From positions 1 to 58,801 of the forward strand of contig CAKTIM010000011.1 of the NCBI GenBank assembly GCA_934565795.1: 58,801 nt of DNA. Direction: 5' to 3'. The DNA comes from an uncultured Oscillospiraceae bacterium (lineage in GTDB: Bacteria; Bacillota; Clostridia; Oscillospirales; Oscillospiraceae). The notes below the pieces were generated by a model. That model saw only the letters and a program-made list of their open reading frames with translations, made no database searches and was not told the DNA's origin. Below, piece after piece: positions 1,105 to 58,116 of this stretch (positions within the stretch are counted from its first letter, which is position 1; each line of letters starts with the position of its first letter). The translations under genes were made by a program, and so were the position numbers.

Positions 1105-1941
1105 GTGTTCTTCCTTTCGTAGTTTATAAAACGTGTGTTGAATGGGAACACCCTACCCGTGTAGGGGCGGATATCAGCCGCCCGCAGCGTCGCGGAATTG
1201 AGCTGTCAGTTGAATGGACATTGCCAAAAGCTTTTGAGTCCGTAGGGGGCGGCAATCTGTCGCCCCGCAGCGTAACGTATCAGAGCGGTGCGGTGAATGG
1301 GAGCAGGTTGCGCTACCTCCAAAGCTTCCCTTGGGGTGGTGCTCCGCGCAGCGAATCAGAATATCAATGATTGCCAGTGGCAATCATACCTTGATTCATT
1401 AGCTGGCAGCCCGTAGGGCTGACTGAAGAGGGCTACCGCAGTGGGATTTTTATTAAGGGTAGGTTGAATGGGAAGCACCTCTCCGTAGGGGCGGATACCA
1501 GCCGCCCGAAAGGTAATGTAATTGAGCTGTATAGACGAAACGCTCAATCCCGGTACTCGGCGGGTCGACAAATTGCCGACCCCTACGCAGGCGGTGGTTT
1601 TCGGCTGATGCCATTCAATGGGGTGCTATCGAAGTGGCGGGGGTTCGGGCGGCTAATATCCGCCCCTACGCACTCAAAGTGTTTAACACTGTACCTTTTT
1701 AACCCAATCTCTTTCAAAACCACAACCTGAGTGCCCTCTTCAGTCGCTGCGGCGACAGCTATTTAATTATGGTATCATTGCCACCGGCAATGATTGTTAT
1801 TAAAGATTCGCTGCGCTCTGCAACACCCCTCAGGGAAGCTTGGGGATGTATCCTTTTACGGTATACGTTCATCTTTACTGCTATCGAAACCGTGGGGTTG
1901 AGGGTCGGCAGGTTGCCGACCCCTACGGGTGGGGGGGCGCA
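1105..1941. repeat. REP-like hairpin block between portal and prp
   Basis: No gene is seen in these 837 bp. Six GTAG hairpins can be read: three rightward (starting near 1161, 1241 and 1487), then three leftward (ending near 1585, 1673 and 1927). A 64-bp miniature element fills 1337-1400, and a second type of insert lies at about 1752-1817 in reverse. The block splits an otherwise compact phage head operon. Confidence 0.8.
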
Positions 1942-3711
1942 CTATGTGGGGCTGGTGGAGTTGGCGACGCGTTGGCGGGCGGTGCGGGTGGCGTAGGGTT
2001 CCTGCTTTTCGCCCCGGAGGCTGGCTTTGCCGGTGGGCCGCTGCTGCGGCTCCTGCCGTTCCTCCGGCGTTTCCTCCGGCGCGGGCAGGGGGGCGGCGGC
2101 CAGGGACTGGAGGTACTGCTGGGCGCTGCGGGCGATGCGCTGCATCACCATGTCCTTGCGGTCGAAATCCATCATGTCCATGCAGGCCAGGGCCTGCTCC
2201 GCGTTGCGGGGGTCGAAGAACCCGGCGGAGTAGAATTGCAGCGCCATCTCGTTCTGGCTCATGCGGGAATAGGCGCTCTGCTTCTGGGCGCTGACGCTGA
2301 TATCGAACAGGGGCACGCGGGTCAGGCCGGTCATGTCGTCGCTCTGGGCCTGCAAGCCCCGGTTGCTGTAGCGGATGAATTCCTCCGCCCCCGCCTCGCC
2401 CACGATGCGAAAGCACCGGGGCAGGCTGTAAAACTGGCGGATCAGCTCGATGACCATCAGGCAGATGCGGCGGAAGGCCCGGTAGGCGGCCTTGTTGCTG
2501 TCCCGGCTGAGCTTGCTGCCCGCCTCCTGCATGGCGGCGATGGCGCTGGCGGCGGTGACGCCGCTGCTGGTGCCGCCGGTGGAGATATCCCGGTTGCCGG
2601 TGACCTCCTTCAGTTCGTCCACCTTGCCGTTGAGCACCGCCAGATACACCTCGCTCAACCCCGTGCTCTGGATAGGCAGAATGCTGTCCTGCCCCAGGCC
2701 GCCCTCCACGTGGACAAAATCCCGGCTCAGGTCGCCGTACTCCTCCTCGTTGACGCTGCCGTCGCTGCGGATGAAGTGCCGGGGCCGGGCGTTGACCAGC
2801 ATGTTCATCAGGATCGCCTGGTTGCCCCGGTCGATGTACTCCTGGGCGCTCTTGGCCACGTCGATGTAGCCGAAGCCGCAGGGCGTGCCCTCGGTGCGGA
2901 ACAGCGGGTCAAAGACGAAGGGATACAGCCCATGGTCATACCAGCCCCGGCTGGCGTACTGCTCCTCATTTTCCGAGGCGAAGAGCACCGTGTCCCCCAC
3001 GAATTTGCAGTAGTGCAGCACCGTCCGGCCGCCCACGGTCTTCTTGTAGTACCAGTCCACCACGGCGCTTTTTTCGGTGGTGTCCACCCGGTCGTCATAC
3101 AGGTATTTGCTGCTGACCTCCTCGGGCGAGCCCAGCTTTTCCGCCAGCTGGGGGTAGCGCTCGATCAGGCTCTCGTTGCGCTGTAGCTCCACATGGAATA
3201 CATTGGCCGAGGCCTGAATGTCGGTGATGCCGCTCTCCCAGAAGAGGTTCAGGATGTCCACCTTGCGGATGGCGATGTCCCCCAGACCGTTCAGGCGGCT
3301 GTCGTCCCAGAATACGCCATAGATGCCGGTGCCGGATTTGAGCTTGCAGTCGTTCACCTCGTCGTAAACCTGCTCAAATTCACTCTGCTCCAGCACCACC
3401 GGGACGACGGCGCTGAGCAGCCTGGCCTCCGCCCGGTCGCTCTCCTCCCTGGGCAGCACATTGGGGCTGGGGAAATTGTCCATCACGTCCGCGTGCTTGC
3501 TGGCGATGGCGTTGAACAGCCACCCGGAGGTAGGCTCCACCTGGCTTTTCCCCCGGCCCCGCATGCATTCCCAGTGGCGCAGCTTGTACCACTGGGCGTT
3601 CTCCACCACCCGGCGCTCCAGGTTGGCCTTGCCCTCCTTGTAGCGGTTCAGGGTGGCCCTGGCCCGGCGCACCTGCTCCTGGCCGATGGGCAGCTTTTTC
3701 ACATTAGTCAT
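1942..3711 (-). CDS. Phage portal protein
   Basis: This 589-residue protein fits a phage portal, the dodecameric ring at the capsid vertex through which DNA is packaged and ejected. It has the usual portal N-terminus with a basic helix and the WYKLRHWECMRG region, followed by SGWLFNAIASKHADVMDNFPSPNVLPRE. A mid-region reads SGTGIYGVFWD, and a long helical part carries GGTSSGVTAASAIAAMQEAGSKLSRD. A Pro/Gln/Glu-rich tail ends the protein. The start codon overlaps the end of the large terminase gene by 8 bp, the usual terL-portal coupling. The reading frame is intact over its full length. The gene is followed by a repeat block, not by another head gene, which is unusual for a working phage operon. 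Confidence 0.92.
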   Translation of the reverse strand: MTNVKKLPIGQEQVRRARATLNRYKEGKANLERRVVENAQWYKLRHWECMRGRGKSQVEPTSGWLFNAIASKHADVMDNFPSPNVLPREESDRAEARLLSAVVPVVLEQSEFEQVYDEVNDCKLKSGTGIYGVFWDDSRLNGLGDIAIRKVDILNLFWESGITDIQASANVFHVELQRNESLIERYPQLAEKLGSPEEVSSKYLYDDRVDTTEKSAVVDWYYKKTVGGRTVLHYCKFVGDTVLFASENEEQYASRGWYDHGLYPFVFDPLFRTEGTPCGFGYIDVAKSAQEYIDRGNQAILMNMLVNARPRHFIRSDGSVNEEEYGDLSRDFVHVEGGLGQDSILPIQSTGLSEVYLAVLNGKVDELKEVTGNRDISTGGTSSGVTAASAIAAMQEAGSKLSRDSNKAAYRAFRRICLMVIELIRQFYSLPRCFRIVGEAGAEEFIRYSNRGLQAQSDDMTGLTRVPLFDISVSAQKQSAYSRMSQNEMALQFYSAGFFDPRNAEQALACMDMMDFDRKDMVMQRIARSAQQYLQSLAAAPLPAPEETPEERQEPQQRPTGKASLRGEKQEPYATRTARQRVANSTSPT

Positions 3712-5122
3712 TGATAATCTCCATTCCCGGCCGCTTTTCGGCCGCTGTGATCTGCTCCCTGGGAATGTCCAGGAAGAGCTTCAGGGGTGAGCGGCTGTAG
3801 CCGTCCTCCGCCCTGGGGAGCCGGGGCCGGATGGGGCGGCTCATGCAGAAATAGCGCACCTCGTCGGCCACGTGATCCTCGCCGTCGGTGTCCACATCCT
3901 CGGCGTTCACCCGGTCGTATTGCAGCAGGGGGATGGTACGGATGAAGGCCCGGCAGTTCTTAAAAATGTACATCTGGGGATACCCGTTCTCGTCCAGCTG
4001 GAGGCGGTAGTGCACCTGCATCCAGCCGGGCAGCCGCTTGTTGTCCCCCGGCTGGAAGAATACCTGGTGCCGGGCGGCGGTCTGGGCGATGCTCTCGCCG
4101 GTCTCCCCATCCCAGATGGCGGGGTCGGCAATGCCGGTGATGCGCCTGCCCCGGAGCCAGCGGTGCTCCGTCTCGATCTGATGAATCTTGGAAAACACCT
4201 GCTCCGGCGTCCAGCGCACCCCCTCGTTGGGGGTGGCGGTGCAGCCGTACAGCTCCAGGATGCGGTAGGCCACCCCGTCGTAGTCCACCGCCCACCAGCC
4301 GCAGGAGAAGGGCCGGTGATAGCCCCAGTCGAAGCTGCGGTACAGCTTCCACTCCTTCGGAATTTCAAAGGGCTCAATGACGTGGGTATACTGCCGGTCG
4401 CGGTAGTGGTCGGGCCGGTCGTAAAAATCCTCGAAGAACTGGCCCTCGTATACGTCCCAGTCCCCCTGGAGCCAGGCCTTGCGCAGCTTGGGGGGCAGCT
4501 TTTCCAGACTGCGCAGATATTGGGGCTGGCTTTTCATCAGGGCGGTGTTGTCGGTGCACAGAGCCTGAATAAAGGCGTAGTCCTCCGGGTGCTCCTGCTC
4601 CTGAAAATTGCGGTCGATGAACAGGCGCTTGAAATACCCATGGCTCGGCCCGCCGGGGTTCAGGGTGAAATAGGTGCGCTTGGGGAAATCATTGGCCCCC
4701 CGGACGCAGGCGTCGATCTGCACCAGCCAGCGCTCCTGAAACTGCCCCGCCTCGTCGGCAAACCACACATCGTACTCCGCCCCCTGATACTGCCCCAGAT
4801 CCTCGTCCCCGTCGCAGTAGCCGAAGCAGATGGTGCTGCCGCCGGGGAAATAGAAAATTTTGTCGGTCTTGTTGTAGCTGGCCACCCCATTCAGCATCAG
4901 CAGCAGGGGGGCGATGTGGTTATTGTACAGTTCCCGGTAGGTGCGCCGGGTGATGAGCACCTTGATCCCCGGATAATGCAGACACAGCAGCACCGCCTTC
5001 CACCGCACAAACCAACTCTTCCCCCCGCCCCGCGCCCCGCCATACCCCACATACCGATGCCGCTCCAACAGCGCCTGCCTCTGCTTCAAATTCGGCTCCG
5101 GCATCACCAACCGTACCCCCAT
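3704..5122 (-). CDS. Phage terminase large subunit
   Basis: This protein of about 472 residues is the ATP-driven DNA-packaging motor and headful nuclease. Near the N-terminus, GGARGGGKS is the Walker A motif, and VWFADEAG about 90 residues later is Walker B with the catalytic Glu. The sequence YFTLNPGGPSHGYFKRLF fits the coupling region. In the C-terminal half, SFDWGYHRPFS and GIADPAIWD supply the acidic residues expected of the RNase H-like nuclease. The ATG at 5122 was preferred. A GTG at 5125 is equally near the AGGGGG ribosome site. The end overlaps the portal start by 8 bp. The reading frame is full length. The repeat block upstream separates it from the likely small subunit. Confidence 0.93.
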   Translation of the reverse strand: MGVRLVMPEPNLKQRQALLERHRYVGYGGARGGGKSWFVRWKAVLLCLHYPGIKVLITRRTYRELYNNHIAPLLLMLNGVASYNKTDKIFYFPGGSTICFGYCDGDEDLGQYQGAEYDVWFADEAGQFQERWLVQIDACVRGANDFPKRTYFTLNPGGPSHGYFKRLFIDRNFQEQEHPEDYAFIQALCTDNTALMKSQPQYLRSLEKLPPKLRKAWLQGDWDVYEGQFFEDFYDRPDHYRDRQYTHVIEPFEIPKEWKLYRSFDWGYHRPFSCGWWAVDYDGVAYRILELYGCTATPNEGVRWTPEQVFSKIHQIETEHRWLRGRRITGIADPAIWDGETGESIAQTAARHQVFFQPGDNKRLPGWMQVHYRLQLDENGYPQMYIFKNCRAFIRTIPLLQYDRVNAEDVDTDGEDHVADEVRYFCMSRPIRPRLPRAEDGYSRSPLKLFLDIPREQITAAEKRPGMEIIND

Positions 5123-5934
5123 CACTTTTTCCCCCTCTCTCTCATACCCAAATTCTCAGTTGACCCCTCGTAGGGGCGGATACCAGCCGCCCGCAACGTC
5201 ACGGAATTGAGCTGTCAATTGAATGAAAATAGCCAAAAGTTCCTGAGTCCGTAGGGGTCGGCAACCTGCCGACCCTCAACCTGACGGTTTCGATAGCACC
5301 CCGTCAAACGGCACCAGCTCCCGCCCTCCACCAAAGCTTCCCTTGGGGGAAGCTGGCAGGCCGTAGGCTTGACTGAAGAGGGCTACCGCAGTACGTCCTT
5401 TTTTAAGGGTAAGTTGAATGGCACACGCCAACCCGTAGGGGCGGATACCAGCCGCCCGCAGCGTCGCGAAATTGAGCTGTCAGTTGAATGAACGTCACCA
5501 AAAGTTTTTGAGTTCGTAGGGGGCGGCAATTTGTCGCCCCGCCGGGTGTCGGGATTGAGCGTTTCGTCTATACAGCTCACATTCGTTAGCTTTCGGGCGG
5601 CTAATATCCGCCCCTACGCACTCAAAATGTTTAACACTGTACCTTTTTAACCGAATCTCTCTCAAAACCATCACCTGAGTGCCCTCTTCAGTCGCTGCGG
5701 CGACAGCTATTTAATTATGGTATCATTGCCACCGGCAATGATTGTTATTAAAGATTCGCTGCGCTCTGCTACACCCCTCAGGGAAGCTCAGAGATGTATC
5801 CTTTGGGTTATACGTTTTTTCTTTACCACTCAAAAACCGTAAGTCTGCGGGTCGGCAAATTGCCGACCCCTACGGGGCTCAGAAGTTTTTAACCGCTCCC
5901 AAAACACCATCGTGCCCCAGACAGTTCGTATCCT
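5123..5934. repeat. REP-like hairpin block between small and large terminase genes
   Basis: No gene is seen. Rightward GTAG hairpins start near 5170, 5250, 5436 and 5517. Leftward ones end near 5617 and 5873. An uninterrupted AGCTTCCC hairpin at about 5333-5356 is an empty site for the 64-bp miniature element. A reversed, filled element lies at about 5715-5780. Confidence 0.8.
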
Positions 5935-6692: not shown

Positions 6693-7640
6693 GGTTCCCT
6701 CTTTCCGTCCAGCCTATTGGACACATTGTAGAATATACTTTTTGTACAACGAAGTAAAAAATAGTTGAAAATTCAGAACCCCTATGCTAAAATACACCCA
6801 GGGCGGGCAGTCCCCCCGCCCCGGATGCATTCGGATCAACGAAATCAAATCCCCCGCACCCCACCCCGTAGGGGCGGATACCAGCCGCCCGCAACCTGAC
6901 GGTTTCGATAGCACCCCGTTGAATGGGAGCAGCTAAAACCATCTGAGTCCGTAGGGGTCGGCAACTTGTCGACCCCAAACGTTGCGGTTTTGACAGCAGT
7001 ACGATGAATGGGAGCAGGTGACAGCCACCACCAAAGCTTCCCTTGGGGGAAGCTGGCAGGCCGTAGGCTTGACTGAAGAGGGCTACCGCAGTACGTTCTT
7101 TATTAAGGGTAAGTTGAATGGCACACGCCAATCCGTAGGGGCGGATACCAGCCGCCCGAAAGGTAACGAAAGTGAGCTGTACAGACGAACCGCTCAGTCC
7201 CGGTACCCAGCGGGGCGACAAATTGCCGCCCCCTACGAACTCAGAAGATTTTCCGGCTTCCATTCAACCGGCAGCTCAGGCCCGGTACACAGCGGGCGGC
7301 TAATATCCGCCCCTACGCACTCAAAATGTTTAACACTGTACCTTTTTAACCGAATCTCTCTCAAAACCGTTACCTGAGTGCCCTCTTCAGTCGCTGCGGC
7401 GACAGCTATTTAATTATGGTATCATTGCCACCGGCAATGATTGTAATTAAAGATTCGCTGCGCTCTGCAACACCCCACAGGGAAGCCAAGAGATGTATCC
7501 TTTTACGGTATACGCTCATCTTTACTGCTTCCTAAACCGCAAGGTTGCGGGTCGGCTGGTAGCCGACCCCTACGGGGACTCAGAAAGCCTTTACTGCTTC
7601 CCAAACCGGCAGGCTGCCGATCCACCGCGGGCTTTTGATT
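6693..7640. repeat. REP-like hairpin block upstream of the phage operon
   Basis: No gene is seen. Rightward GTAG hairpins start near 6869, 6951 and 7136, and leftward ones end near 7238, 7316 and 7573. An empty AGCTTCCC hairpin lies at about 7034-7056, and a reversed, filled miniature element lies at about 7410-7477. Confidence 0.8.
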
Positions 7641-8389: not shown

Positions 8390-8660
8390 GCCCCCTTTTC
8401 CTCCGTAGGGGTCGGCAACCTGCCGACCCTCAACCTTGCGGTTTTTGAGCGGTAAAGAAAAACGTATAACTTAAAGGGTACATCCCCCAAACTTCCTCCA
8501 TTCAATGCACTGCTATCGAAGTGGCAACGTTGAGGGGCGACAAATTGCCGCCCCCTACGAACTCAGAAGCTTTTGGTAATCTCCATTCAACCGGCAGCTC
8601 AATTCCGCAACCTCGCGGGCGGCTGGTATCCGCCCCTACGGATGGGGTGCATCCCACTCA
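8390..8660. repeat. Short REP-like block between repressor and peptidase
   Basis: One rightward GTAG hairpin starts near 8405 and two leftward ones end near 8560 and 8641. No gene is seen. It separates two genes that normally sit together in one operon. Confidence 0.75.
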
Positions 8661-9155: not shown

Positions 9156-10150
9156 TTATCCCTTCGTAGGGGTCGGCAATCTGTCGACCCTCAAGCTGGC
9201 GGTTTGTGGAGCAGTATGGATGAACGTATAACCTGACGGGTAAATCCTTGAGCTTCCCTGTGGGGTGTTGCAGAGCGCAGCGAATCTTTAATTACAATCA
9301 TTGCCGGTGGCAATGATACAATAATTAAATAGCTGTCGCCGCAGCGACTGAAGAGGGCACTCAGGTGATGGTTTTGAGAGAGACTCAACTAAAAAGGTAC
9401 AATGTCAAATATTCTGAGTCCGTAGGGGGCGGCAATTTGTCGCCCCGCCGAGTACCGGGACTGAGCGGTTCGTCTGTACAGCTCACTTTCGTTACCTTTC
9501 GGGCGGCTAATATCCGCCCCTACGGATTGGCGCGTACCATTCAACCTACTCTTAATAAAAATCCCACTGCGGTAGCCCTTTTCAGTCAGGCCTACGGCCT
9601 GCCAGCTTCCCCAAGGGAAACTTTTGGAGGTAACCGTAGCCTGCCTCTATTCAACGAACCGCTCTGTTCCGCGACGTTGCGGGTCGGCAGGTTGCCGACC
9701 CCTACGAACTCAGAAGATTTTTCCGGCTTCCGTTCAACCGGCAGCTCACGTCCATTACCTCGCGGGCGGCTGATATCCGCCCCTACGGATTGGCGGGCAC
9801 CATTCAACTTACCCTTAATAAAAAACGTACTGCGGTAGCCCTTTTCAGTCAGGCCTGTGGGCTGCCAGCTAATGAATCAAGGTATGATTGCCACCGGCAA
9901 TCATTGATATTCTGATTCGCTGCGCGGGGCGCCACCCCAAGGGAAGCTTTGGTGGGCGCGGAAGCTGTTGCCATTCAATGCACCGCTCTGTTCCGCAACG
10001 TTTAGGGTCGGCAGGTTGCCGACCCCTACGAACTCAGAAACTTTTGGTGATGTCCATTCAATATACCGCTCAATGCCGGTATGCTGCGGGCGGCTGGTAT
10101 CCGCCCCTACGGTGGGGGGCTTGCCATTCAACGTATTGCTATCGAAAACG
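9156..10150. repeat. Long REP-like hairpin block
   Basis: No gene is seen. Two rightward GTAG hairpins start near 9166 and 9421, and five leftward ones end near 9525, 9708, 9787, 10029 and 10112. A forward miniature element of the second type fills 9266-9330, and a reversed element of the first type fills about 9872-9937. This block marks the right edge of the phage island. Confidence 0.8.
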
Positions 10151-13755: not shown

Positions 13756-14240
13756 CCCTCCCCCCCCGTAGGGGTCGGCTACCAGCCGCCCGCAACCCAT
13801 CGGTTTCGATAGCAGTCCGTTGAACGGGGGCAAGCAAAACAACTGAGCCCCGTAGGGGTCGGCAATTTGTCGACCCTAAACCCCACGGTTTTTGAGTGGT
13901 AAAGAAAAAACGTATAACAGAAAGGGCACATCCCCCAAGCTTCCCTGTGGGGGAAGCTGTCGCCGCAGCGACTGAAGAGGGCACTCAGCTCATGGTTTTG
14001 AGAGAGATTTGGTTAAAAAGGTACAATCCAAAACACTTTGAGCCCGTAGGGGCGGATACCAGCCGCCCGCCAAGTACCGGGACTGAGCAGTATAAACGAA
14101 CCGCTCAATCCCGGTACCCAGCGGGGCGACAAATTGCCGCCCCCTACGAACTCAGAAACTTTTGGTAATGTTCATTCAACTAACAACTCAATTCCGCGAC
14201 GCTGCGGGCGGCTGGTATCCGCCCCTACGGGCCTCAAAAG
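13756..14240. repeat. REP-like hairpin block
   Basis: No gene is seen. Rightward GTAG hairpins start near 13779, 13854 and 14045, and leftward ones end near 14148 and 14229. The hairpin at about 13937-13958 is an empty site matching those filled by the second type of miniature element elsewhere. Confidence 0.8.
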
Positions 14241-15841: not shown

Positions 15842-16290
15842 TCTCACCCCGTAGGGGCGGATACCAGCCGCCCGCAGCGTCGCGGAATTGAGCTGTCAGT
15901 TGAGTGGAAGCCGCCAAAAGTTTTTGAGTTCGTAGGGGGCGGCAATTTGTCGCCCCGCAGCGTAACCACTTTGATAGCAGTTCGTTGAATGGCACCAGCT
16001 CCCGCCCTCCACCAAAGCTTCCCTTGGGGTGGTGCTCCGCGCAGCGAATCAGAATATCAATGATTGCCGGTGGCAATCATACCTCGATTTATTAGCTGGC
16101 AGGCCGTAGGCCTGACTGAAGAGGGCTACCGCAGTTGGTTCTTTATTAAGGGCAAGTTGAATGGTACGTACCCATCCGTAGGGGCGGATACCAGCCGCCC
16201 GAAAGCTAACGAAACTGAGCTGTATAGACGAACCGCTCAATCCCGGTACCCGGCGGGTCGACAAATTGCCGACCCCTACGGGAGGGGGGC
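15842..16290. repeat. REP-like hairpin block
   Basis: No gene is seen. Rightward GTAG hairpins start near 15851, 15932 and 16179, and one leftward hairpin ends near 16281. A forward miniature element of the first type fills about 16028-16091. The block lies between two leftward genes. Confidence 0.8.
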
Positions 16291-17220
16291 TCACACTGTT
16301 TTTCCGTCGCCGTCGTCCAGGATGTGGGCGACGGGGGTGCCTTTTTCGGAGAGCTTTTTGAAGTTGCCCATGACGCTGCCCACCTGGCTCATCATGGCGA
16401 AGGTGTGGGGGTACTTTTCGATCACGGCGGCCAGGGCGGCGGCCTGGGTGGTGTTCACCACGCACATGACGATCCAGGTCTCCTTGCCGGTGTAGGCGCC
16501 CACGGCCTTATAGCGGGTGGCGCTGTGGTGGAGCAGGTGGATGATGTCGCCGCAGACCTCGTCGGGGTAGTCGGTGACGATCTCAAAGCGCATGGCGCTG
16601 CGGCCGCTCTTCTGGAAGCGGTCGCCCACGGTGGTGGAGGTGAAGCCGTACAGAATGCACAAAATCACCGGCTCCATCTGGTAATCATACACAAAGAAGC
16701 TGGCCACCGCCACCATGGCGTTGATAATGAAGCTCAGAGCGAACACGCTCTTGCCCGGATGGTGCTTGTGCACCACGGCGGAGATGAAGTCGGTGCCGCC
16801 GGTGTAAGCGCTGGCCTTGATGAGCACGCCGTAGCAGAAGCCCATGATGATGCCCGCCACCAGCGGCCCCAGAATGCGGCTGGTGCCGCTGTCGGTGGCG
16901 TAGGCAATGACGCTCAGGTCGATCCGATCCAGCACCAGCAGGGCCAGGGAGAAGGTGACGACATACACCATGCTCCGCACCGCCACCGCCCGGCTGACCT
17001 CCAGATAGCACCAGATAGCCAGGGGAATGTTCACCAGCAGGCTCAGATAGCCCACGCTGATCCCCGTCAGATGCTGAATCATGGTGCAAACGCCATTGAT
17101 CCCCGAGGGTGCGAACTGATTGGGAAAAATAAACAGCTCATAATTCACCGCCGACAAACACGCCACCCCGGCGATCACGAAATAAGTCCAGATCTTCTTA
17201 ATCGTTTCCCATCGATTCAC
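16291..17220 (-). CDS. YitT-family membrane protein
   Basis: This 309-residue protein has five to six membrane segments in its first 200 residues, such as YFVIAGVACLSAVNYELFIF, VGYLSLLVNIPLAIWCYL, MVYVVTFSLALLVLDRI and LGPLVAGIIMGFCYGVLIKA. The motif SAYTGGTDFISAVVHK is characteristic of YitT/DUF161 proteins. The C-terminal soluble part (from about residue 225, RFEIVTDYPDEVCGDIIHLL through GAYTGKETWIVMCVV) is the DUF2179 domain found with it. The family is widespread in Firmicutes, and its transport substrate is not settled. The gene ends just before a repeat block and is upstream of guaB in the same direction, but co-transcription is uncertain. Confidence 0.88.
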   Translation of the reverse strand: MNRWETIKKIWTYFVIAGVACLSAVNYELFIFPNQFAPSGINGVCTMIQHLTGISVGYLSLLVNIPLAIWCYLEVSRAVAVRSMVYVVTFSLALLVLDRIDLSVIAYATDSGTSRILGPLVAGIIMGFCYGVLIKASAYTGGTDFISAVVHKHHPGKSVFALSFIINAMVAVASFFVYDYQMEPVILCILYGFTSTTVGDRFQKSGRSAMRFEIVTDYPDEVCGDIIHLLHHSATRYKAVGAYTGKETWIVMCVVNTTQAAALAAVIEKYPHTFAMMSQVGSVMGNFKKLSEKGTPVAHILDDGDGKTV

Positions 17221-17249: not shown

Positions 17250-17860
17250 TTTTCTTGGCTCCCCGATGGGGGAGCTGGCAGCCCGAACGGGCTGACTGAG
17301 GGGGTGCGGTTCGTTGAACGGTAATATGTAAAATTCTTTGCCCCCCGTAGGGGTCGGCAACCTGCCGACCCTCAACCTAACGGTTTCGGAAGCAGTAAAG
17401 ATGAACGTATAACCGAAAGGGTACATCCCCTAAGCTTCCCTGTGGGGTGTTGCAGAGCGCAGCGAATCTTTAATTACAATCATTGCCAGTGGCAATGATA
17501 CAATAATTAATTAGCTGTCGCCGCAGCGACTGAAGAGGGCACTCAGCCTATGGTTTTGAGAGAGATTTGGTTAAAAAGGTAAACGGTTAAACACTTTGGG
17601 TGCGTAGGGGTGGTGCTCCGCGCAGCGAATCAAGATATCAATGATTGCCAGTGGCAATCATACAATTGATTCATCGGATACCAGCCGCCCGAAACCCAAC
17701 GAACGTGAGCTGTACAGACAAACCGCTCAATCCCGGTACCCGGCGGGGCGACAGATTGCCGCCCCCTACGAACTCAAAAACTTTTGGCAATTTTCATTCA
17801 ACTGACCGCTCAATTCCGCAACGCTGCGGGCGGCTGGTAGCCGCCCCTACGGAATCGGGG
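17250..17860. repeat. REP-like hairpin block upstream of dnaA
   Basis: No gene is seen. Rightward hairpins start near 17347 and 17604, and leftward ones end near 17770 and 17852. The hairpin at 17604 is split by a 64-bp miniature element at exactly 17611-17674. A second-type element fills about 17450-17514. Confidence 0.8.
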
Positions 17861-19349: not shown

Positions 19350-19810
19350 GCTCCCCCCTCCGTAGGGGCGGATACCAGCCGCCCGCAGGGTACCGAAATT
19401 GAGCGGTATGTTGAATGGACATTACCAAAAGCTTTTGAGTTCGTAGGGGGCGGCAATTTGTCGCCCCGCCAGGTACCGGGATTGAGCGGTTCGTCTGAAC
19501 AGCTCAGTTTCATTACCTTTCGGGCGGCTAATATCCGCCCCTACGCACTCAAAACGTTGTACACTGTACCTTTTTAGTGGGGTCTCTCTCAAAACCACAA
19601 GCTGAGTGCCCTCTTCAGTCGCTGCGGCGACAGCTAATTAATTATTGTATCATTGCCACCGGCAATGATTGTAATTAAAGATTCGCTGCGCTCTGCAACA
19701 CCCCACAGGGAAGCTCAGGGGATGTATACATCAGGTTATACGTTCATCTTTTTTGCTATCGAAACCGATAGGTTAAGGGTCGACAAATTGCCGACCCCTA
19801 CGGACTCAGA
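19350..19810. repeat. REP-like hairpin block between dnaA and oriC
   Basis: No gene is seen. Two rightward GTAG hairpins start near 19360 and 19443, and two leftward ones end near 19543 and 19801. A reversed second-type miniature element fills about 19637-19701. The DnaA boxes start 13 bp after the last hairpin. Confidence 0.8.
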
Positions 19811-21169: not shown

Positions 21170-21906
21170 CGCAGAACGTTGAGTGGGAAGCAGAAAGAAC
21201 AACTGAGTCCCGTAGGGGTCGGCAATTTGTCGACCCGCAACGTAACCACTTCAATAGCAGTGCGTTGAATGGAACCAGCTTCCGCTACCACCAAAAGCTT
21301 CCCTTGGGGTGGTGCTCCGCGCAGCAAATCAGAATATCAATGATTGCCGGTGGCAATCATACCTCGATTTATTAGCTGGCAGCCCGTAGGGCTGACTGAA
21401 GAGGGCCTACCGCAGTAGGATTTTCTTAAAGGGTGTGTTGAATGGTACACGCCAATCCGTAGGGGCGGATATTAGCCGCCCACCGGGTATCGAGATTGAG
21501 TGGTATGTTGAATGGACATCACCAAAAGTTTCTGAGTTCGTAGGGGGCGGCAATTTGTCGCCCCGCCGAGTACCGGGATTGAGCGTTTCGTCTATACAGC
21601 TCAGTTCCATTACCTTTCGGGCGGCTAATATCCGCCCCTACGCACTCAAAACGTTGTACCCTGGTACCTCTTTAGTTAAGTCTCTCTCAAAACCACAAGC
21701 TGAGTGCCCTCTTCAGTCGCTGCGGCGACAGCTATTTAATTATGGTATCATTGCCACCGGCAATGATTGTTATTAAAGATTCGCTGCGCTCTGCAACACC
21801 CCACAGGGAAGCTTGGGGGATGTGCCCTTTAGGTTATACGTTCATCTTTACTGCTACCCAAACCGCAAGGTTGCGGGTCGACAAATTGCCGACCCCTACA
21901 GACTAA
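21170..21906. repeat. REP-like hairpin block between dnaN and yaaA
   Basis: No gene is seen. Rightward GTAG hairpins start near 21210, 21460 and 21540, and leftward ones end near 21640 and 21900. A forward first-type element fills about 21308-21372, and a reversed second-type element about 21735-21799. In most Firmicutes these two genes are adjacent. Confidence 0.8.
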
Positions 21907-22162: not shown

Positions 22163-23249
22163 GCTTTATCTGCGCTCCTTCCGCAATTACGCCGAGGAGC
22201 GGCTGGAATTTGACCCCGGCGTGAACCTGATCGTGGGCCAGAACGCCCAGGGAAAGACCAATCTGCTGGAGGCCATCGCCTTCCTCGGCAGCGGCAGGAG
22301 CTTCCGCGCCCAGCGAAACGCCGAGATGATCGGCTTCGGGGCGGACTTCGCGGAGCTGGACGGGGGCATCACCGCCCAGGAGCGTGACCAGCGCATCCGC
22401 TGGCTGATCTTCCCCGGCTCCCGGCCAAGGCAGCTGACGGTGAACGGCGTGAAGAAAAAGACCGCCGCCAGCCTGGCGGGGCTGCTGCCCACGGTGCTGT
22501 TCTGCCCGGAGGATTTGCTGATTTTAAAGGCCGGGGCGTCTGCCCGGCGGCGGTTTGGGGATAATGTATTGTGTCAGCTGCGACCCAATTACGACGCGGC
22601 CCTGGTCGAATACACCCGCATCCTGGATCAGAAGAGCCGCATTTTAAAGGATCATCACGACCACCCTGCCGTGCTGGAAATTCTGCCGGAATACAACCAG
22701 CGCCTGTGCCGGGTGGGGGCCATCCTCATTTCCTACCGGGCCAGATTCTTCGACGCCCTGGGCAAAGCGGCAGGGGAGTACCACAGCAGCTTTTCCGGCG
22801 GCCGGGAGGACTTCCGGCTGGAATATAAAACGGTTTCCAATATTTTAGACCCCTTCGCCCCGGTTGCGGCGCTGGAGGGAAAATTGAACGAGCACCTGGA
22901 GCGCCACTACCGGGCGGAGCTGGACAGCGGCCAATGCCTGACGGGGCCGCACAAGGACGATTTTGAGATCACCCTGTCCGGGATCAACTTAAAGCTCTAC
23001 GGCTCCCAGGGCCAGACCCGCACCGCGGCCATCAGCCTGAAGCTGGCCCAGCGGGAGCTGATGCGCCGGGAATGGGGCCAGGAGCCGGTGCTGCTGCTGG
23101 ACGACGTCCTCAGCGAACTGGACGCCGGCCGCCAGGACTTCGTCCTCAACCAGATCGTCAAAGGCCAGGTCTTCATCACCTGCTGCGAACCGGGAAGATT
23201 CACAAAGCTGGGAAAGACCATGGAAATCAAAGAAGGCGCCCTCTCGTAG
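22149..23249 (+). CDS. recF: DNA replication and repair protein RecF
   Basis: This 366-residue SMC-like ATPase loads RecA at gapped DNA with RecO and RecR. It starts [18 protein letters not shown], and Walker A is GQNAQGKTN at about residues 32-40. [13 protein letters not shown] follows. The C-terminal half has [11 protein letters not shown], the ABC signature-like [15 protein letters not shown], and Walker [18 protein letters not shown]. The ATG at 22149 overlaps yaaA by 14 bp, and the GTG at 22152 is an alternative. The TAG stop codon comes from the GTAG of a repeat unit that begins at 23246, so the last residues may be repeat-derived. Length is normal for the family. Confidence 0.97.
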
Positions 23250-23530
23250 GATCGGCTACCAGCCGCCCGCAACGTCGCGGAATTGAGCTGTCAGTTGAAT
23301 GAAAATAGCCAAAAGTTTCAGAGCCCGTAGGGGGCGGCAATCTGCCGCTCCGCAGCGTAACAAAACAGAGCGGTGCGTTGAATGGAACGCACCCCCTCCG
23401 TAGGGGCGGATACCAGCCGCCCGAAAGGTAACGAACGTGAGCTGTACAGACGAACCACTCAATCCCGGTACATGGCGGGTCGACAAATTGCCGACCCCTA
23501 CGGACTCAGAAGTTTTTTACTGCTGCCCAA
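23246..23530. repeat. REP-like hairpin block between recF and gyrB
   Basis: This block starts inside the recF stop codon. Rightward GTAG hairpins start near 23246 (slightly degenerate), 23327 and 23399, and one leftward hairpin ends near 23502. No nested miniature element is present. About 95 bp remain before gyrB. Confidence 0.8.
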
Positions 23531-25559: not shown

Positions 25560-26030
25560 AAAGCGCCCCGGTACGTTGAATGGCAAGCACCCACCCCGTA
25601 GGGGCGGATACCAGCCGCCTGCAACATTGCGGTTTCGATAGCAGTCCGTTGAATGGAAACAGAGAAAAATTTCTGAGTCCGTAGGGGGCGGCAACCTGCC
25701 GCTCCGCAACGTAACGAGACAGAGCGGTGCGTTGAATGGGGCAGGCCACGGCCACCACCAAAGCTTCCCTTGGGGTGGTGCTCCGCGCAGCGAATCAGAA
25801 TATCAATGATTGCCGGTGGCAATCATACCTCGATTTATTAGCTGGCAGCCCGTAGGGCTGACTGAAGAGGGCTTACCGCAGTTGGTTTTTTATTAAGGGT
25901 GAGGTGAATGGCAAGCACCCCCAGTAGGGGCGGATACCAGCCGCCCGCAAGCCAACGAACGTGAGCTGTATAGACGAACCCCTCAATCCCGGTACCCAGC
26001 GGGTCGACAAATTGCCGACCCCTACGGATA
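25560..26030. repeat. REP-like hairpin block between gyrB and gyrA
   Basis: No gene is seen. Rightward GTAG hairpins start near 25597, 25680 and 25924, and one leftward hairpin ends near 26025. A forward first-type miniature element fills about 25777-25841. gyrB and gyrA are normally adjacent in Firmicutes. Confidence 0.8.
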
Positions 26031-29084: not shown

Positions 29085-29765
29085 CCCCTATAAGGGTCGG
29101 CAATCCGCCGACCCTTAATCTATTGGTTTCAATAGCAGTAAAGATGAACAGAACCAGAAAAAAACTGCCCCCCGTAGGGGTCGGCAATTTGTCGACCCTA
29201 AACCTGACGGTTTCGATAGCAGTAAAGATGAACGTATACCGTAAAAGGATACATCCCCAAGCTTCCCTGTGGGGTGTTGCAGAGCGCGGCGAATCTTTAA
29301 TAACAATCATTGCCGGTGGCAATGATACCATAATTAAATAGCTGTCGCCGCAGCGACTGAAGAGGGCACTCAGCTCATAGTTTTGAGAGAGATTTGACTA
29401 AAGAGGTAGAGTGTTAAACATTCTGAGTCCGTAGGGGTGGTGCTCCGCGCAGCGAATCAAAATATCAATGATTGCCGGGGGCAATCATACAATTGATTCA
29501 TCGGATACCAGCCGCCCGAAAGCTAACGGACGTGAGCTGTACAGCCGACCCGCTCAATCCCGGTACCCGGCGGGGCGACAAATTGCCGCCCCCTACGAAC
29601 TCAGTTGTTTTGCCTGCTTCCATCCAACGCACTGCTATCGAAACCGTAACGTTGCGGGCGGCTGGTATCCGCCCCTACGGATCGGCGTGTACCATTCAAC
29701 GCACTGCTATCAAGGTGGCGACGTTGAGGGTCGACAGATTGTCGACCCCTACGGTGGGGAAAAGT
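29085..29765. repeat. REP-like hairpin block
   Basis: No gene is seen. Rightward units start near 29092 (GTAG lost), 29176 and 29430, and leftward ones end near 29598, 29680 and 29752. A first-type element fills about 29437-29500 inside the hairpin at 29430. A second-type element fills about 29275-29340. Confidence 0.8.
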
Positions 29766-36294: not shown

Positions 36295-36940
36295 ACCCCA
36301 CCCGCCGAATAAATTGAATGGGAAGCCCCCCCTCCCGTAGGGGCGGCTACCAGCCGCCCGAACCCCAACGGTCTCGATAGCAGTCCGTTGAATAGAACCA
36401 GCAAAAAAACTACCCCCCCGTAGGGGTCGACAACCTGTCGACCCTAAACCTAACGGTTTAAGAAGCACTAAAGATGAACGTATACCGTAAAAGGATACAT
36501 CCCCAAGCTTCCCTGTGGGGTGTTGCAGAGCGCAGCGAATCTTTAATAACAATCATTGCCGGTGGCAATGATACCATAATTAAATAGCTGTCGCCGCAGC
36601 GACTGAAGAGGGCACTCAGGTAATGGTTTCGAGAGAGACTTGACTAAAAAGGTAGAATGTCAAACACTTTGAGTCCGTAGGGGTGGTGCTCCGCGCAGCG
36701 AATCAGAATATCAATGATTGCCAGTGGCAATCATACAATTGATTCATCGGATACCAGCCGCCCGAAAGGTAATGAAACTGAGCTGTATAGACCAACCACT
36801 CAATCCCGGTACCCAGCGGGGCGACAAATTGCCGCCCCCTACGAACTCAGAAGCTTTTAGTGATGTCCATTTAACTGACAACTCAATCCCGGTACCCAGC
36901 GGGGCGACAAATTGCCGCCCCCTACGGCCTCAAAAACTTT
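36295..36940. repeat. REP-like hairpin block
   Basis: No gene is seen. Rightward GTAG hairpins start near 36337, 36420 and 36677, and leftward ones end near 36842 and 36925. A first-type element fills about 36684-36747 inside the hairpin at 36677, and a second-type element about 36519-36584. Confidence 0.8.
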
Positions 36941-38811: not shown

Positions 38812-39490
38812 TGTTTGCCCCCCCGTAGGGCCAGATACCAGCTGCCCGAACCCATGCGGTTTCGACAGCAGTAAGTTGAACAGAACCAGTCAAACCACCT
38901 GCCCCCGTAGGGGTCGGCAACCTGCCGACCCTCACCCCCACGGTTTCGATAGCACCAAAGATGAACGTATAACCTACCGTATACATCCCCCAAGCTTCCC
39001 TGTGGGGTGTTGCAGAGCGCAGCGAATCTTTAATAACAATCATTGCCAGTGGCAATGATACAATAATTAACTAGCTGTCGCCTCAGCGACTGAAGAGGGC
39101 ACTCAGCTCATGGTTTCGAGAGAGATTTGGTTAAAAAGGTAGAAGGTTAAACACTTTGAGTCCGTAGGGGCGGTGCTCCGCGCAGCGAATCAAAATATCA
39201 ATGATTGCCGGGGGCAATCATACAATTGATTCATCGGATACCAGCCGTCCGAAAGCTAACGAACGTGAGCTGTACAGTCAAACCGCTCAATCCCGGTACC
39301 CGGCGGGGCGACAAATTGCCGCCCCCTACGAACTCAGTTGCTTTGCCTGCTTCCATTCAACGCACTGCTATTGAAACCGTGACGTTGCGGGCGGCTAATA
39401 TCCGCCCCTACGAAGAGCCGCTCCCATTCACCGCACCGCTCTGTTCCATCACACGGCGGGGCGACAAATTGCCGCCCCCTACGGGCTCAG
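38812..39490. repeat. REP-like hairpin block between parB and serS
   Basis: No gene is seen. Rightward hairpins start near 38824, 38907 and 39163, and leftward ones end near 39330, 39411 and 39482. A first-type element fills about 39170-39233 inside the hairpin at 39163, and a second-type element about 39005-39070. Confidence 0.8.
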
Positions 39491-41764: not shown

Positions 41765-42360
41765 CAATCCCACCCGCCTGAACTCTGGCAGTTTGGGTAG
41801 CAGAACGGTGAACGTAAAAAGAAAAAAACTGAGCCCGTAGGGGTCGGCAATTTGTCGACCCTCAACCTTACGGTTTAGGAAGCAGTAACGATGAACGTAT
41901 AACCTCAAGGGTACATCTCTAAGCTTCCCTGTGGGGTGTTGCAGAGCGCAGCGAATCTTTAATAACAATCATTGCCGGTGGCAATGATACCATAATTATA
42001 TAGCTGTCGCCGCAGCGACTGAAGAGGGCACTCAGCGAATGGTTTTGATAGAGATTTGATTAAAAAGGTACAGTGTACAACGTTTTGAGTGCGTAGGGGT
42101 GGTGCTCCGCGCAGCGAATCAAGATATCCATGATTGCCGGTGGCAATCATACAATTGATTCATCGGATACCAGCCGCCCGAAAGGTAATGAAACTGAGCT
42201 GTACAGACGAACCGCTCAATCCCGGTACCCAGCGGGGCGACAAATTGCCGCCCCCTACGAACTCAGAAGTTTTTGGTAATGTCCATTCAACTGACAACTC
42301 AATCCCGGTACCTGGCGAGCGGCTGATATCCGCCCCTACGGGTGGGCAGCCCCATTCACC
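41765..42360. repeat. REP-like hairpin block
   Basis: No gene is seen. Rightward GTAG hairpins start near 41837 and 42092, and leftward ones end near 42260 and 42340. A first-type element fills about 42099-42162 inside the hairpin at 42092, and a second-type element about 41937-42002. Confidence 0.8.
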
Positions 42361-44394: not shown

Positions 44395-45170
44395 CGCCCC
44401 CCGCCAGCATCACGTTGAATGGGAAGCCCCCCCGTAGGGGTCGGCTATCAGTCGACCCTTAACCCAACGGTTTCGATAGCAGTCCATTGAATGGGAACAG
44501 GAAAAAACTTTTGAGTCCGTAGGGGTCGGCAACCTGCCGACCCTCAACCTCACGGTTTTGATAGCAAAAAAGATGAACGTATACCGTAAAAGGATACATC
44601 CCCCCAAGCTTCCCTGGGGGGGAAGCTGTCGCCGCAGCGACTGAAGAGGGCACTCAGCTAATGGTTTCGAGAGAGATTTGGTTAAAAAGGTACAGCGTAC
44701 AACGTTTTGAGTGCGTAGGGGCGGATACCAGCCGCCCGAAAGCCAACGAACGTGAGCTGTATAGACCAACCGCTCAATCCCGGTTCCCAGCGGGGCGACA
44801 AATTGCCGCCCCCTACGAACTCAGAAAATTTTTGTGCATTCCACTCACCGCACTGCTATCGAAACCGTAACGTTGCGGGCGGCTGGTATCCGCCCCTACG
44901 GATTGGCGTGTACCATTCACCGTACCCTTAATAAAGAACGTACTGCGGTGGCCCTCTTCAGTCAGCCCTACGGGCTGCCAGCTAATGAATCAAGGTATGA
45001 TTGCCACTGGCAATCATTGATATTTTGATTCGCTGCGCGGAGCACCACCCCAAGGGAAGCTTTTGGAGGGGGCCGCAACCTGCTCCCATTCACTGCACCG
45101 CTCTGTTTCGTCGCGCTGCGGGGCGACAAATTGCCGCCCCCTACGGGTGGGGTGCGTCCCATTCAGCGTC
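44395..45170. repeat. REP-like hairpin block
   Basis: No gene is seen. Rightward GTAG hairpins start near 44432, 44519 and 44716, and leftward ones end near 44816, 44902 and 45145. An empty AGCTTCCC hairpin lies at about 44607-44632, and a reversed first-type element fills about 44983-45046. Confidence 0.8.
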
Positions 45171-45854: not shown

Positions 45855-46370
45855 TAGCGCCACCCCGTAGGGGCGGATATTAGCCGCCCGCAACGTTGCG
45901 GTTTGGGTAGCAGTAAAATCCTTCTGAGTCCGTAGGGGTCGGCAATTTGTCGACCCGCCGGGTACCGGGATTGAGCGCTTCGTCCATACAGTTCACTTTC
46001 ATTACCTTTCGGGCGGCTGGTATCCGCCCCTACGGATCGGTGCGTCCCATTCAACCTACCCTTAATAAAAATCCCACTGCGGCGGCCCTCTTCAGTCAGG
46101 CCTACGGCCTGCCAGCTAATGAATTAAGGTATGATTGCCACCGGCAATCATTGATATTCTGATTCGCTGCGCGGAGCACCACCCCAAGGGAAGCTTTTGG
46201 TGGGCGCGGAAGCTGTCCCCATTCACCGCACCGTTATGTTCCGCAACGTTGAGGGTCGACAAATTGCCGACCCCTACGGACTCAGGTGTTTTGCCTGCTT
46301 CCATTCAACGCACTGCTATCAAAACCGTCAGGTTTCGGGCGGCTGGTATCCGCCCCTGCAAAGGGATGCG
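45855..46370. repeat. REP-like hairpin block
   Basis: No gene is seen. Rightward GTAG hairpins start near 45867 and 45933, and leftward ones end near 46036, 46278 and 46358 (the last is damaged). A reversed first-type element fills about 46118-46182. Confidence 0.8.
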
Positions 46371-50459: not shown

Positions 50460-50946
50460 CTCCAAAAAATTTCCCCCACCCCCTTACGGCTTTGATAGCA
50501 GTAAATTGAATGGGAACAGGCAAAAATTTCTGAGTCCGTAGGGGTCGGCAATTTGTCGACCCTAAACCTCACGGCTTTTGAGTGGTAAAGAAAAAACGTA
50601 TAACCTAAAGGGTACATCCCCCAAGCTTCCCTGTGGGGTGTTGCAGAGCGCAGCGAATCTTTAATCACAATCATTGCCGGTGGCAATGATACCATAATTA
50701 AATAGCTGTCGCCGCAGCGACTGAAGAGGGCACTCAGCCCATGGCTTTGAGAGAGACCCAACTAAAAAGGTAGAATGTCCAACATTTTGCCATTCAACGC
50801 ACTACTACCCAAATGGCAACATTGCGGGGCGACAAATTGCCGCCCCCTACGAACTCAGAAACTTTTGGCTATTTTCATTCAACCAACAGCTCAATTCCGG
50901 GACGTTGCGGGCGGCTAATATCCGCCCCTACGGGGCGGCATATCCC
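50460..50946. repeat. REP-like hairpin block
   Basis: No gene is seen. One rightward GTAG hairpin starts near 50537, and two leftward ones end near 50850 and 50932. A forward second-type miniature element fills about 50639-50703. Confidence 0.8.
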
Positions 50947-52319: not shown

Positions 52320-52418
52320 CGCAGCGGGTGCGGGAACCCCATCGCGGATGCGAAACCCTTCGTCTGCCACACAACTCCCCATTCTGGCAGCACTTCACGC
52401 AGGATCCCCTACTCTGTT
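52320..52418 (-). ncRNA. Tetrahydrofolate riboswitch aptamer
   Basis: On the minus strand the RNA reads AGAGUAG, then GCGUGAAGUG, then GAAUGGGGAGUUGU, then ACGAAGG, and ends GCACCCGCUGC. These are, in order, the conserved segments of the THF (folT) aptamer. It begins about 4 nt after the expected transcription start and lies upstream of a FolT-type gene. The terminator at 52172-52209 is about 110 nt downstream, which is a longer linker than I would expect. Confidence 0.85.
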
Positions 52419-52499: not shown

Positions 52500-52682
52500 A
52501 AAGCTACGTTGAATGGTGATATATAAAACTCTCTGAGTCCGTAGGGGTCGGCAACCTGCCGACCCTCAACCTTGCAAGGGAAGCTTTTGGAGGTCACCGT
52601 CACCTGCCTCCATTCACCGCACCGCTCAATTCCGCCACATTGCGGGTCGGCAAATTGCCGACCCCTACGAACTCAAAAAATT
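52500..52682. repeat. Short REP-like block
   Basis: One rightward GTAG hairpin starts near 52540 and one leftward hairpin ends near 52668. The stretch 52683-52951 before spoIIE holds a possible -10 (TAGAAT at 52771-52776), but no clear -35 or 0A box. Confidence 0.7.
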
Positions 52683-52951
52683 TCAACTTACCCCCATCAA
52701 AACCGCCCGCCCGTCATAACTTTCCTGTGGGGCTTTCCACGTTGCGACTGCATCTTTTGTTTGCCGGTGATAGAATGCAGGAAAAAGCTCCGGCGGGGCT
52801 GTGTAAATGCGGGAAATGGTGGGAATAATCCTGAATTTCACCTTCCAAAAGTTGCGTTTTAACGCTATTTTGAGATGTGAAAAATGCTGCTTTCACCGCG
52901 GGCAGAGCTGCTGGGGGCCGGAAATTCACGAATGAAAGGCAGGACTTGCGA

Positions 52952-54775: not shown

Positions 54776-54777
54776 CA

Positions 54778-55440
54778 TCCCGCCCCCGTAGGGGCGGATA
54801 CCAGCCACCCGCAACGTTACCACCTCGATAGCAGTCCGTTGAATGGAACCAGGCAAAACAACTGAGTCCCGTAGGGGGCGGCAACCTGCCGCTCCGCAAC
54901 GTAACGAGCCAGAGCGGTGCGTTGAATGGCACCAGCTGACGGCCCCCTCCAAAGCTTCCCTCGGGGTGGTGCTCCGCGCAGCGAATCAGAATATCAATGA
55001 TTGCCGGTGGCAATCATACCTTAATTCATTAGCTGGCAGCCCGCAGGGCTGACTGAAGAGGGCCTGCCGCAGTACGTCCTTTATTAAGGGTAAGTTGAAT
55101 GGTATGCACCCCTCCGTAGGGGCGGATACCAGCCGCCCGAAAGGTGACGAACGTGAGCTGTATAGACGAACCGCTCAATCCCGGTACATGGCGGGTCGGC
55201 AAATTGCCGACCCCTACGGACTCAGAAGGATTTTACTGCTATCGAAACCGTCACACTGCGGGGCGACAAATTGCCGCCCCCTACGAACTCAGAATGTTTA
55301 ACCGTCTACCTTTTTAGTCAAATCTCTCTCAAAACCATACGCTGAGTGCCCTCTTCAGTCGCTGCGGCGACAGCTTCCCCCTCAGGGGATTATACGCTCA
55401 TCCCCACTGCTTCCCAAACCGCCAGCTTGCCGACCCCTAC
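54778..55440. repeat. REP-like hairpin block that supplies the pdaA stop codon
   Basis: Rightward GTAG hairpins start near 54787, 54870 and 55117, and leftward ones end near 55218 and 55285. A partial leftward unit ends at 55440 and carries the stop codon of pdaA. A forward first-type element fills about 54967-55030. Confidence 0.8.
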
Positions 55441-56210: not shown

Positions 56211-56298
56211 ATGCATTCCTCCATTCCCCACCAGCCTATGAGGGCCGCCTGCGGGATATTCCGCCCGAAAATGGGAATGCTTTTGCGAGGTGAACAAG

Positions 56299-56970: not shown

Positions 56971-57351
56971 ATGGGACGATTTAAGATCGGCGTGGGCCTG
57001 CTGGCGGTGCTGCTGGCCCTGGCCGTGGGGGCGCAGCTGGGCATGAAGGCCGCCCAGCAGCCGGTGTCCGAATTGCTGACGGCGGCGCTGGAGCAGGTGC
57101 AGCAGGCCCGCTTCCCGGAGGCGCAGGCCCTGGTCGACCAGGCCCGGCAGCAGTGGGAGCGCACCCGCACCTTCCGCGCCGCCCTGGCCGACCATCAATG
57201 CCTGGAGGATATCGAAAGCCAGCTGGCCATGCTGTCCGTCTGGGCCGCGGAGCACGAGCCCGCCGACTTCGCCGTCCTCTGCGCCGACACCCTCCTCCGC
57301 CTCAAAGCCGTCGCCGACGCCCACGCCCTGAACCTCTCCACATTCTTCTAA
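56971..57351 (+). CDS. DUF4363 protein
   Basis: This 126-residue protein has an N-terminal hydrophobic segment (IGVGLLAVLLALAVGAQLGM), then an alpha-helical part with LLTAALEQVQQARFPEAQALVDQARQQWERTRTF and ADHQCLEDIESQLAMLSVWAAEHEPADFAVLCADTLLRLKAVADAH. This fits DUF4363, a short family encoded beside DUF421 proteins in spore formers. Its position directly after the DUF421 gene, with no spacing, supports joint function. The helical outer part resembles a small helical bundle. Function is unknown. Confidence 0.85.
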   Translation: MGRFKIGVGLLAVLLALAVGAQLGMKAAQQPVSELLTAALEQVQQARFPEAQALVDQARQQWERTRTFRAALADHQCLEDIESQLAMLSVWAAEHEPADFAVLCADTLLRLKAVADAHALNLSTFF

Positions 57352-57359
57352 CCCCAGCC

Positions 57360-58116
57360 CCCACCGCGTAATGGGCCTGATCCGCCAGTTGAATGGGAAG
57401 CACCCCATCCGTAGGGGCGGATACCAGCCGCCCGCAACCTACCGGGCCTGAGCTGTCAATTGAGTGGAAGCAGCCAAAAGTCTTTGAGTTCGTAGGGGGC
57501 GGCAACCTGTCGCCCCGCAACGTCGCCACTTCGATAGCAGTACGTTGAGTGGCGACAGCTTCTGCAACCTCCAAAGCTTCCCTCGGGGGAAGCTGGCAGC
57601 CCGTAGGGCTGACTGAAGAGGGCTACCACAGTGGGATTTTCTTAAAGGGTGCGGTGAATGGGGCCGCTCACCCGTAGGGGCGGCTACCAGCCGCCCGCAG
57701 CGTTGCCATATCGATAGCAGTTCGTTGAGTGGCACCAACCAAAAGCCTCTGAGTTCGTAGGGGGCGGCAATCTGCCGCCCCGCCGGGTACCGGGATTGAG
57801 CGATTCGGCTGTATAGCTCACGTTCGTTGGCTTTCAGGCGGCTAATATCCGCCCCTACGCACTCAGAACGTTGTACACTGTACCTTTTTGGTTGGGTCTC
57901 TCTCGAAACCATACGCTGAGTGCCCTCTTCAGTCGCTGCGGCGGCAGCTAATTTATTATTGTATCATTGCCACCGGCAATGATTGTTATTAAAGATTCGC
58001 TGCGCTCTGCAACACCCCGCAGGGAAGCTTGGGGATGTGCCCTTTCGGTTATACGTTTTTTCTTTACCACTCAAAAACCGTAACGTTGAGGGTCGGCAGA
58101 TTGCCGACCCCTACGG
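57360..58116. repeat. REP-like hairpin block
   Basis: No gene is seen. Rightward GTAG hairpins start near 57409, 57494, 57673 and 57757, and leftward ones end near 57860 and 58114. The hairpin at about 57573-57597 is an empty site, and a reversed second-type element fills about 57947-58013. Confidence 0.8.

Follow-up and report, generated by a model that had tools for sequence, protein, structure and literature searches.

Compound GTAG REP blocks sorted by orientation in the gene gaps of an Oscillospiraceae bacterium

REPs are best known from proteobacteria. REPs, REPINs and the arrangement with GTAG outside as the commonest dimer form are already known. The head-to-head REP dimer with GTAG outside is described as privileged in most REP families in the main text of PMC3733652. 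For the RAYT transposases, the text of a 2010 paper states that homologs were not found in other major lineages (PMC2817692), and the sections of a 2018 survey cited here describe subclass 2.4 as scattered over various phyla (PMC6006769).

Here, we compare with these systems a chromosomal stretch of 58.8 kb with 60% GC, the whole of which is called the window. Pfam matches were obtained for dnaA, dnaN, a recF-like gene, gyrB and gyrA; further genes are IMPDH, serS and parB. Portal and terminase genes are located at the left end (1942-5125) with REP blocks on both sides, and contigs homologous to this region are present in a viral collection (L212-L214). A THF riboswitch (Rfam RF01831) occupies 52320-52418 of the minus strand, directly upstream of a co-oriented ECF-transporter-like gene.

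Hairpin types and block order

A hairpin scan of the window gave 120 GTAG matches at a loose cut-off that includes chance matches within genes. By hand, 105 termini (56 rightward, F; 49 leftward, R) were placed into 22 complete blocks, and block limits and hairpin types A, B and C were likewise hand-assigned (Table 1). The 105 termini include five hairpins split by a 64-bp insert as well as degenerate or hybrid hairpins (13768, 23246, 38825, 42339, 44434, 54788 and 55440). The leftward hairpin at 176 was left out because its block is cut by the window edge. Isolated matches within genes were dropped, as were those GTAGGG/CCCTAC matches, located in or next to blocks, that have no REP hairpin. 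Among the latter, 1156, 1993, 13656 and 52412 run contrary to an F-before-R rule (1993, 13656 and 52412 being located in a gene or in the riboswitch), and 1413, 21386, 25852, 44971 and 57603 are compatible with it.

Table 1. Positions and composition of the REP blocks and of two features within them.
Feature	Position	Strand	Composition and remarks
Block 0, edge-cut	152..176	-	One leftward type C hairpin; outside the 22
Block 1	1161..1926		F A,B,A / R C,A,C
Block 2	5170..5873		F A,C,A,B / R A,C; L212 counterpart gap: only ~40 bp between aligned segments
Block 3	6868..7573		F A,C,A / R B,A,C; compatible with three nested elements
Block 4	8405..8639		F C / R B,A
Block 5	9166..10110		F C,B / R A,C,A,C,A
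Block 6	13768..14228		F A(hybrid),C,A / R B,A
Core REPIN of block 6	14046..14147	+	102 bp, GTAG...CTAC, one long hairpin, RNA z -7.2
Block 7	15851..16279		F A,B,A / R C
Block 8	17347..17850		F C,A(interrupted) / R B,A
Block 9	19362..19801		F A,B / R A,C; between dnaA and dnaN
Block 10	21212..21899		F C,A,B / R A,C
Block 11	23246..23501		F A,B,A / R C; first GTAG gives stop codon of recF-like gene; L001 gap 18 bp
Block 12	25598..26025		F A,B,A / R C; gyrB-gyrA gap, 14 bp in L001
Block 13	29174..29752		F C,A(interrupted) / R B,A,C
Block 14	36337..36925		F A,C,A(interrupted) / R B,B
Block 15	38825..39482		F A,C,A(interrupted) / R B,A,B
Block 16	41837..42339		F C,A(interrupted) / R B,A
Block 17	44434..45144		F C(hybrid),C,A / R B,A,B
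Block 18	45867..46277		F A,C / R A,C
Block 19	50538..50931		F C / R B,A
Block 20	52541..52668		F C / R C
Block 21	54788..55440		F A,B,A / R C,B,C(degenerate)
Block 22	57411..58114		F A,B,A,B / R A,C
Type A hairpin split by 64-bp palindromic insert (W)	29431..29517	+	Same site at 17604, 36677, 39164, 42093

Type A is GTAGGGGCGGATACCAGCCGCCC, type B GTAGGGGGCGGCAATTTGTCGCCCC and type C GTAGGGGTCGGCAACCTGCCGACCC. Each consists of a 5' GTAG followed by a short palindromic stem-loop, and the hairpins occur in many intergenic copies with complementary stem changes; the base before GTAG is C in 101/105 termini. Read from GTAG, the 531 stem cells of 59 B/C hairpins comprise 486 Watson-Crick pairs, 44 G-T, 0 A-C and 1 other. 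A single stem position holds 37 of the 44 G-T pairs, and the degenerate copy at 55440 supplies four of the remaining seven as well as the one other cell. The 42 type A hairpins gave 286 Watson-Crick, 3 G-T, 2 A-C and 45 other cells, 37 of these 45 at one A-G position. Since the copies are related, such cells are not independent events. Among 17 distinct B/C hairpins, 99.3% of cells are paired vs 91.4% after shuffling and the covariation score is 0.300 vs 0.152, neither value being reached by any of 500 shuffles. The number of cells changed on both sides was likewise reached by 0/500 shuffles, that of pairs changed on both sides by 27/500 and that of pair types by 50/500. The covariation claimed in the earlier note is thus confirmed, and its assignment of GTAG plus palindrome to the REP form is supported by form and covariation. 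The pairing patterns of B/C and type A are consistent with, but no proof of, a structure that is read from the strand bearing GTAG, as would be expected of a RAYT substrate. The hairpin structure seems to be under constraint on one strand.

All F hairpins precede all R hairpins in 22/22 complete blocks, which contain up to seven REPs. For this order P = 4e-21 at fixed counts (permutation), a value that is too optimistic because the blocks share copied modules and hairpins were treated as independent. The blocks span 11,892 bp (20.2% of the window), and 22 of the 24 gaps longer than 150 bp between genes, by our own gene calling, contain exactly one of them. The rightward-before-leftward order had been proposed in the earlier note, together with a count of about 23 blocks in about a fifth of the window; both agree with the 22 complete blocks and the edge-cut one found here. 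Types A and B/C alternate in 75/83 neighbouring hairpin pairs (types by hand). The large imperfect dyad that had been proposed for each block is only partly supported: hairpins at equal depth on the two arms are of opposite class in 36/43 pairs (shuffle p 5e-5), and matched flanks are no more complementary than mismatched ones.

The gene pairs around the 22 block-bearing gaps are tandem in 15 cases, convergent in four and divergent in three, and blocks frequently lie close behind stop codons. Folding of blocks 3 and 9 (2/22) and of one core gave z values of -12.9 (DNA, 20 shuffles) and of -7.7 and -7.2 (RNA). BIMEs of E. coli have been proposed to serve as gyrase sites. The order could be maintained by selection on the block as a functional whole, whether as such a site or, at the ends of transcripts, in termination or RNA protection, in agreement with one block per gap, the frequent proximity to stop codons and the strong folding of both blocks tested. 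Against it, blocks also occur in divergent gaps and are absent at the same genes in the colinear locus L001. Furthermore, B/C stems pair best on the GTAG strand, and therefore either transcript carries half of them on the poorer strand. We regard such selection as very improbable.

Cores, inserts and shared modules

The explanation that we favour, with slightly better than even confidence, is that the blocks are compound, nested REPINs, i.e. REPINs inserted inside REPINs that spread as compound units. The mobile unit would be a REPIN, in which two facing GTAG REPs with GTAG outside form one long hairpin on the single strand, and a RAYT (Y1 HUH) transposase would move it as single-stranded DNA. 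On insertion of a REPIN inside a REPIN, the new REP pair would fall between the old pair; rightward REPs would therefore stay left of leftward ones without selection. If each element were a heterodimer that ends in type A on one side and in B or C on the opposite side, and if insertion occurred in a fixed orientation, types would alternate and opposite arms would differ in type. Compound units with GTAG at both ends would spread again, into gaps behind genes. We infer both the RAYT as mover of the window's elements and the insertion of REPIN into REPIN as the origin of the sorted order.

The innermost F..R unit, termed the core, is exactly 102 bp long in 14/22 blocks and 166 bp (102 + 64-bp insert) in five; the other three cores measure 154, 313 and 128 bp. 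The core of block 6, the single one folded, forms one hairpin from GTAG to CTAC. Two inverted REPs and a spacer giving one long hairpin, as in a REPIN, were hence found in this core, and 14/22 cores have its length.

Nesting is directly visible in a 63-64 bp palindrome. It occurs in two variants and occupies some but not all copies of two kinds of site inside larger palindromes, namely the type A hairpin (5 with, 42 without) and the Z site (11 with, 5 without, by pattern). In the five cores with the W insert it is located at the identical base. A block query matched 92/136 genomes of the genus and, among the matches listed, most lie in the 64-bp palindromic W part (window 29434-29493).

Modules of ~430-504 bp are common to groups of blocks at 85-92% identity and often start or stop at GTAG termini inside other blocks; alignment ends fall within 3 bp of a terminus in 24% of cases vs 10.5% expected. 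The recurrence of GTAG-bounded modules across blocks suggests that compound units spread. The shared modules and the identical W site could also indicate a single ancestral compound block that arose by any route and was then copied as a whole or in part, so that the shared polarity reflects descent rather than a repeated process. However, the blocks vary in depth, order and core orientation, and blocks of the L212 type (see below) are sorted too, with another hairpin and partly at other gaps. Such common descent, which can be combined with nested REPINs, is rather unlikely in our view.

Local duplication was considered as the source of most A-P units, which show a likeness of 0.771 in the same block (n=7 pairs) vs 0.808 in different blocks (n=371). 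As they are no more alike within than between blocks, most were presumably not made in this way. The few remaining comparisons within blocks (Y, n=1; L212-type, n=2) gave a slightly higher likeness than those between blocks.

Four features are left unexplained by nested REPINs: F and R counts are unequal in 12/22 blocks, a plain outer element is absent, the age gradient within blocks is weak and the flanks are not complementary. As a tentative proposal, the transposase may prefer the interior of its own folded REPINs, in fixed orientation, which would yield nested compound elements moving as wholes. If true, a self-nesting mobile element has reshaped nearly all origin-proximal gene gaps of a gut Clostridium, and different REP families have done the same in sister lineages.

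Sister loci and RAYT-like genes of relatives

The 80 best relatives by gyrB are mostly MAGs of Oscillospiraceae and other Clostridia; three of the 80 bear the name Candidatus Faecousia. The hairpin density of the window (1.6 per kb) compares with 0.89 in the next highest of the 80 syntenic loci, 36 of which have no such hairpin. The best match by gyrB, L001, is colinear with the window at 75-89% nucleotide identity over matching segments and lacks the window's blocks. Accordingly, its gaps measure 18 vs 369 bp in the window (recF-gyrB), 14 vs 531 bp (gyrB-gyrA), 253 vs 748 bp (dnaN-S4) and 584 vs 715 bp (dnaA-dnaN). In L001, the dnaA-dnaN gap contains a single FR dimer, which belongs to another family, and the dnaN-S4 gap a lone hairpin. 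The window's recF-like gene stops at the TAG of the first GTAG (23246-23249) where L001 has TAA; thus, the final codons were apparently rewritten by insertion of a REP.

L212 and L214 are pieces from a viral collection whose portal gene is 82% identical to that of the window. Together with L297, they contain groups of GTAGGGGCGATGAAAATCGCCC hairpins. With this hairpin, sorted order was found in eight blocks of L292, L294, L295 and L297 (p 4e-5), which are the same contigs as L212 and L214 plus one more; each contig was counted once and groups cut by contig ends were excluded. The groups read FFR, FRR, FFFR, FFRR, FRRR, FFR, FRR and FFR, one having an outer hairpin from another family and the last lying 100 bp from the contig end. 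A ninth place, where two hairpin families are 34 bp apart, reads FRFRR. Some of the GTAGGGGCGATGAAAATCGCCC blocks share the window's gap behind the portal gene; others are at different gaps.

The F units of L212-type blocks are evenly spaced at ~158 bp, and the sole same-arm pair compared has a likeness of 0.923 vs 0.869 between blocks. Together with the unequal F and R counts, this would agree with slippage, by which tandem half-unit copies extend the arms on either side of a central REPIN and keep the polarity. In the window, however, A-P units are no more alike within a block than between blocks and most hairpins at equal depth on the two arms differ in type, which makes slippage improbable.

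For nested REPINs, L214 is informative in that a 102-bp type-A-like REPIN is located 157 bp inside two rightward GGGCGAT units of another hairpin family. Its spacer is identical to those of window cores at 31-35 of 53-54 positions, above 500/500 shuffles in all ten comparisons. A 133-bp A-type REPIN adjoins a block at 34 bp. The two plain REPINs of L214 hence lie beside or within a block, neither alone, and comparisons of the window with relatives showed no single-REPIN insertion with a matching empty site.

Two further observations concern L212. Relative to L214 (L212:4909-5444 vs L214:2540-6725), several kb are missing between a REP block and a point within a gene, apparently through a REP-associated deletion. 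Another structured element, GGCTCCCTCTCTGAGGGAGCTGGCAGCCCG..GGGCTGACTGAGGGAG, in which one arm has two possible partners, was seen at L212:4991-5056 and in relatives. A query containing it matched 75/136 genomes of the genus and, among the matches listed, most lie there or in its inverted copy.

The 58.8-kb window contains no RAYT gene. PF01797 matches were found in 13/21 relative genomes, and five proteins scanned from among the weaker PF01797 matches all match NF047646 (RAYT), one with 84 bits and four with 67-76 at a curated cut-off of 80. The HUH motif and the C-terminal Tyr motif of RAYTs were detected by script in 35/41 loci examined, so that both motifs and the NF047646 match occur in relatives. 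A GTAG hairpin, with stems that differ from those of the window, lies near 21 of these 35 RAYT loci, near meaning within 600 bp on at least one side with up to 150 bp into the frame allowed. The 14/35 loci without a nearby GTAG hairpin include many 250-aa proteins. RAYT-like genes are located inside F..R in L091, L097, L100 and L181, and between two FR or FRR groups in L088, L090 and L186, the surrounding REPs being cognate. In L208, a GTAG hairpin at 16867 lies within the matched part of a RAYT gene (G111:C2), as reported for subclass 2.4.

FR predominates among neighbouring hairpins in relatives, with 62 FR, 26 RF, 11 FF and 11 RR pairs in one count and 26 FR, 8 RF and 4 FF in a second; in these counts overlapping loci were in places counted twice, and many loci were picked by matches. 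Multi-hairpin groups in a 400 kb sample of seven genomes are mostly plain FR dimers. Consequently, the polarity is not supported as a new principle: GTAG outside is the head-to-head dimer described in the main text of PMC3733652, and is the commonest neighbour pair in relatives. The F-before-R rule is not general either, since mixed clusters such as RFRFRFFR (L104) exist in relatives. The opposite arrangement, R then F at a distance of 31 bp, was seen in L057 (2583-2614 and 15442-15473), whose genome (G018) gave no Y1 transposase match.

Comparison with known REP systems

The bacterium's family is rich in GTAG hairpins and in RAYT-like genes, with NF047646 matches in 180/400 genomes, six of them above the curated cut-off. 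By their motifs only, some relatives' RAYTs resemble subclass 2.4 of RAYT/TnpAREP as the cited sections of Quentin 2018 (PMC6006769) describe it, with NH[IFV]H, WQ, YIxNNP and REP-flanked genes; other relatives have DHLH or DHIH.

The compound REP form and its place in Clostridia appear to be undescribed. As far as limited searches show, two things are new: the regular compound form, present in almost every gap, and the fact that it recurs in a related lineage that has a different hairpin. With sorted compound REPs making up a fifth of its DNA, such a region preserves a fossil record of how REPs moved, in which the unsettled target choice of REPs becomes testable.

With the GTAG REP dimers described in the main text of Di Nocera 2013 (PMC3733652), the hairpins of the window share the GTAG tail, stems of 6-9 bp, short loops, G-T pairs, complementary stem changes, heterodimers and a mainly intergenic location. 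They differ in that this main text names no Firmicutes or Clostridia hosts and that the window's blocks contain up to seven REPs sorted by orientation. BIMEs are likewise REP mosaics between genes; however, their regularly spaced REPs alternate in orientation according to the text of PMC2817692, whereas in 22/22 blocks of the window orientation is sorted and type alternates. The REPINs of Pseudomonas fluorescens (Bertels and Rainey 2011, PMC3116915) share two inverted REPs and a spacer that form one hairpin. In the parts of that paper cited here, ordered clusters are tandems of near-identical REPINs, whereas the window carries sorted, alternating compound blocks in nearly all gaps.
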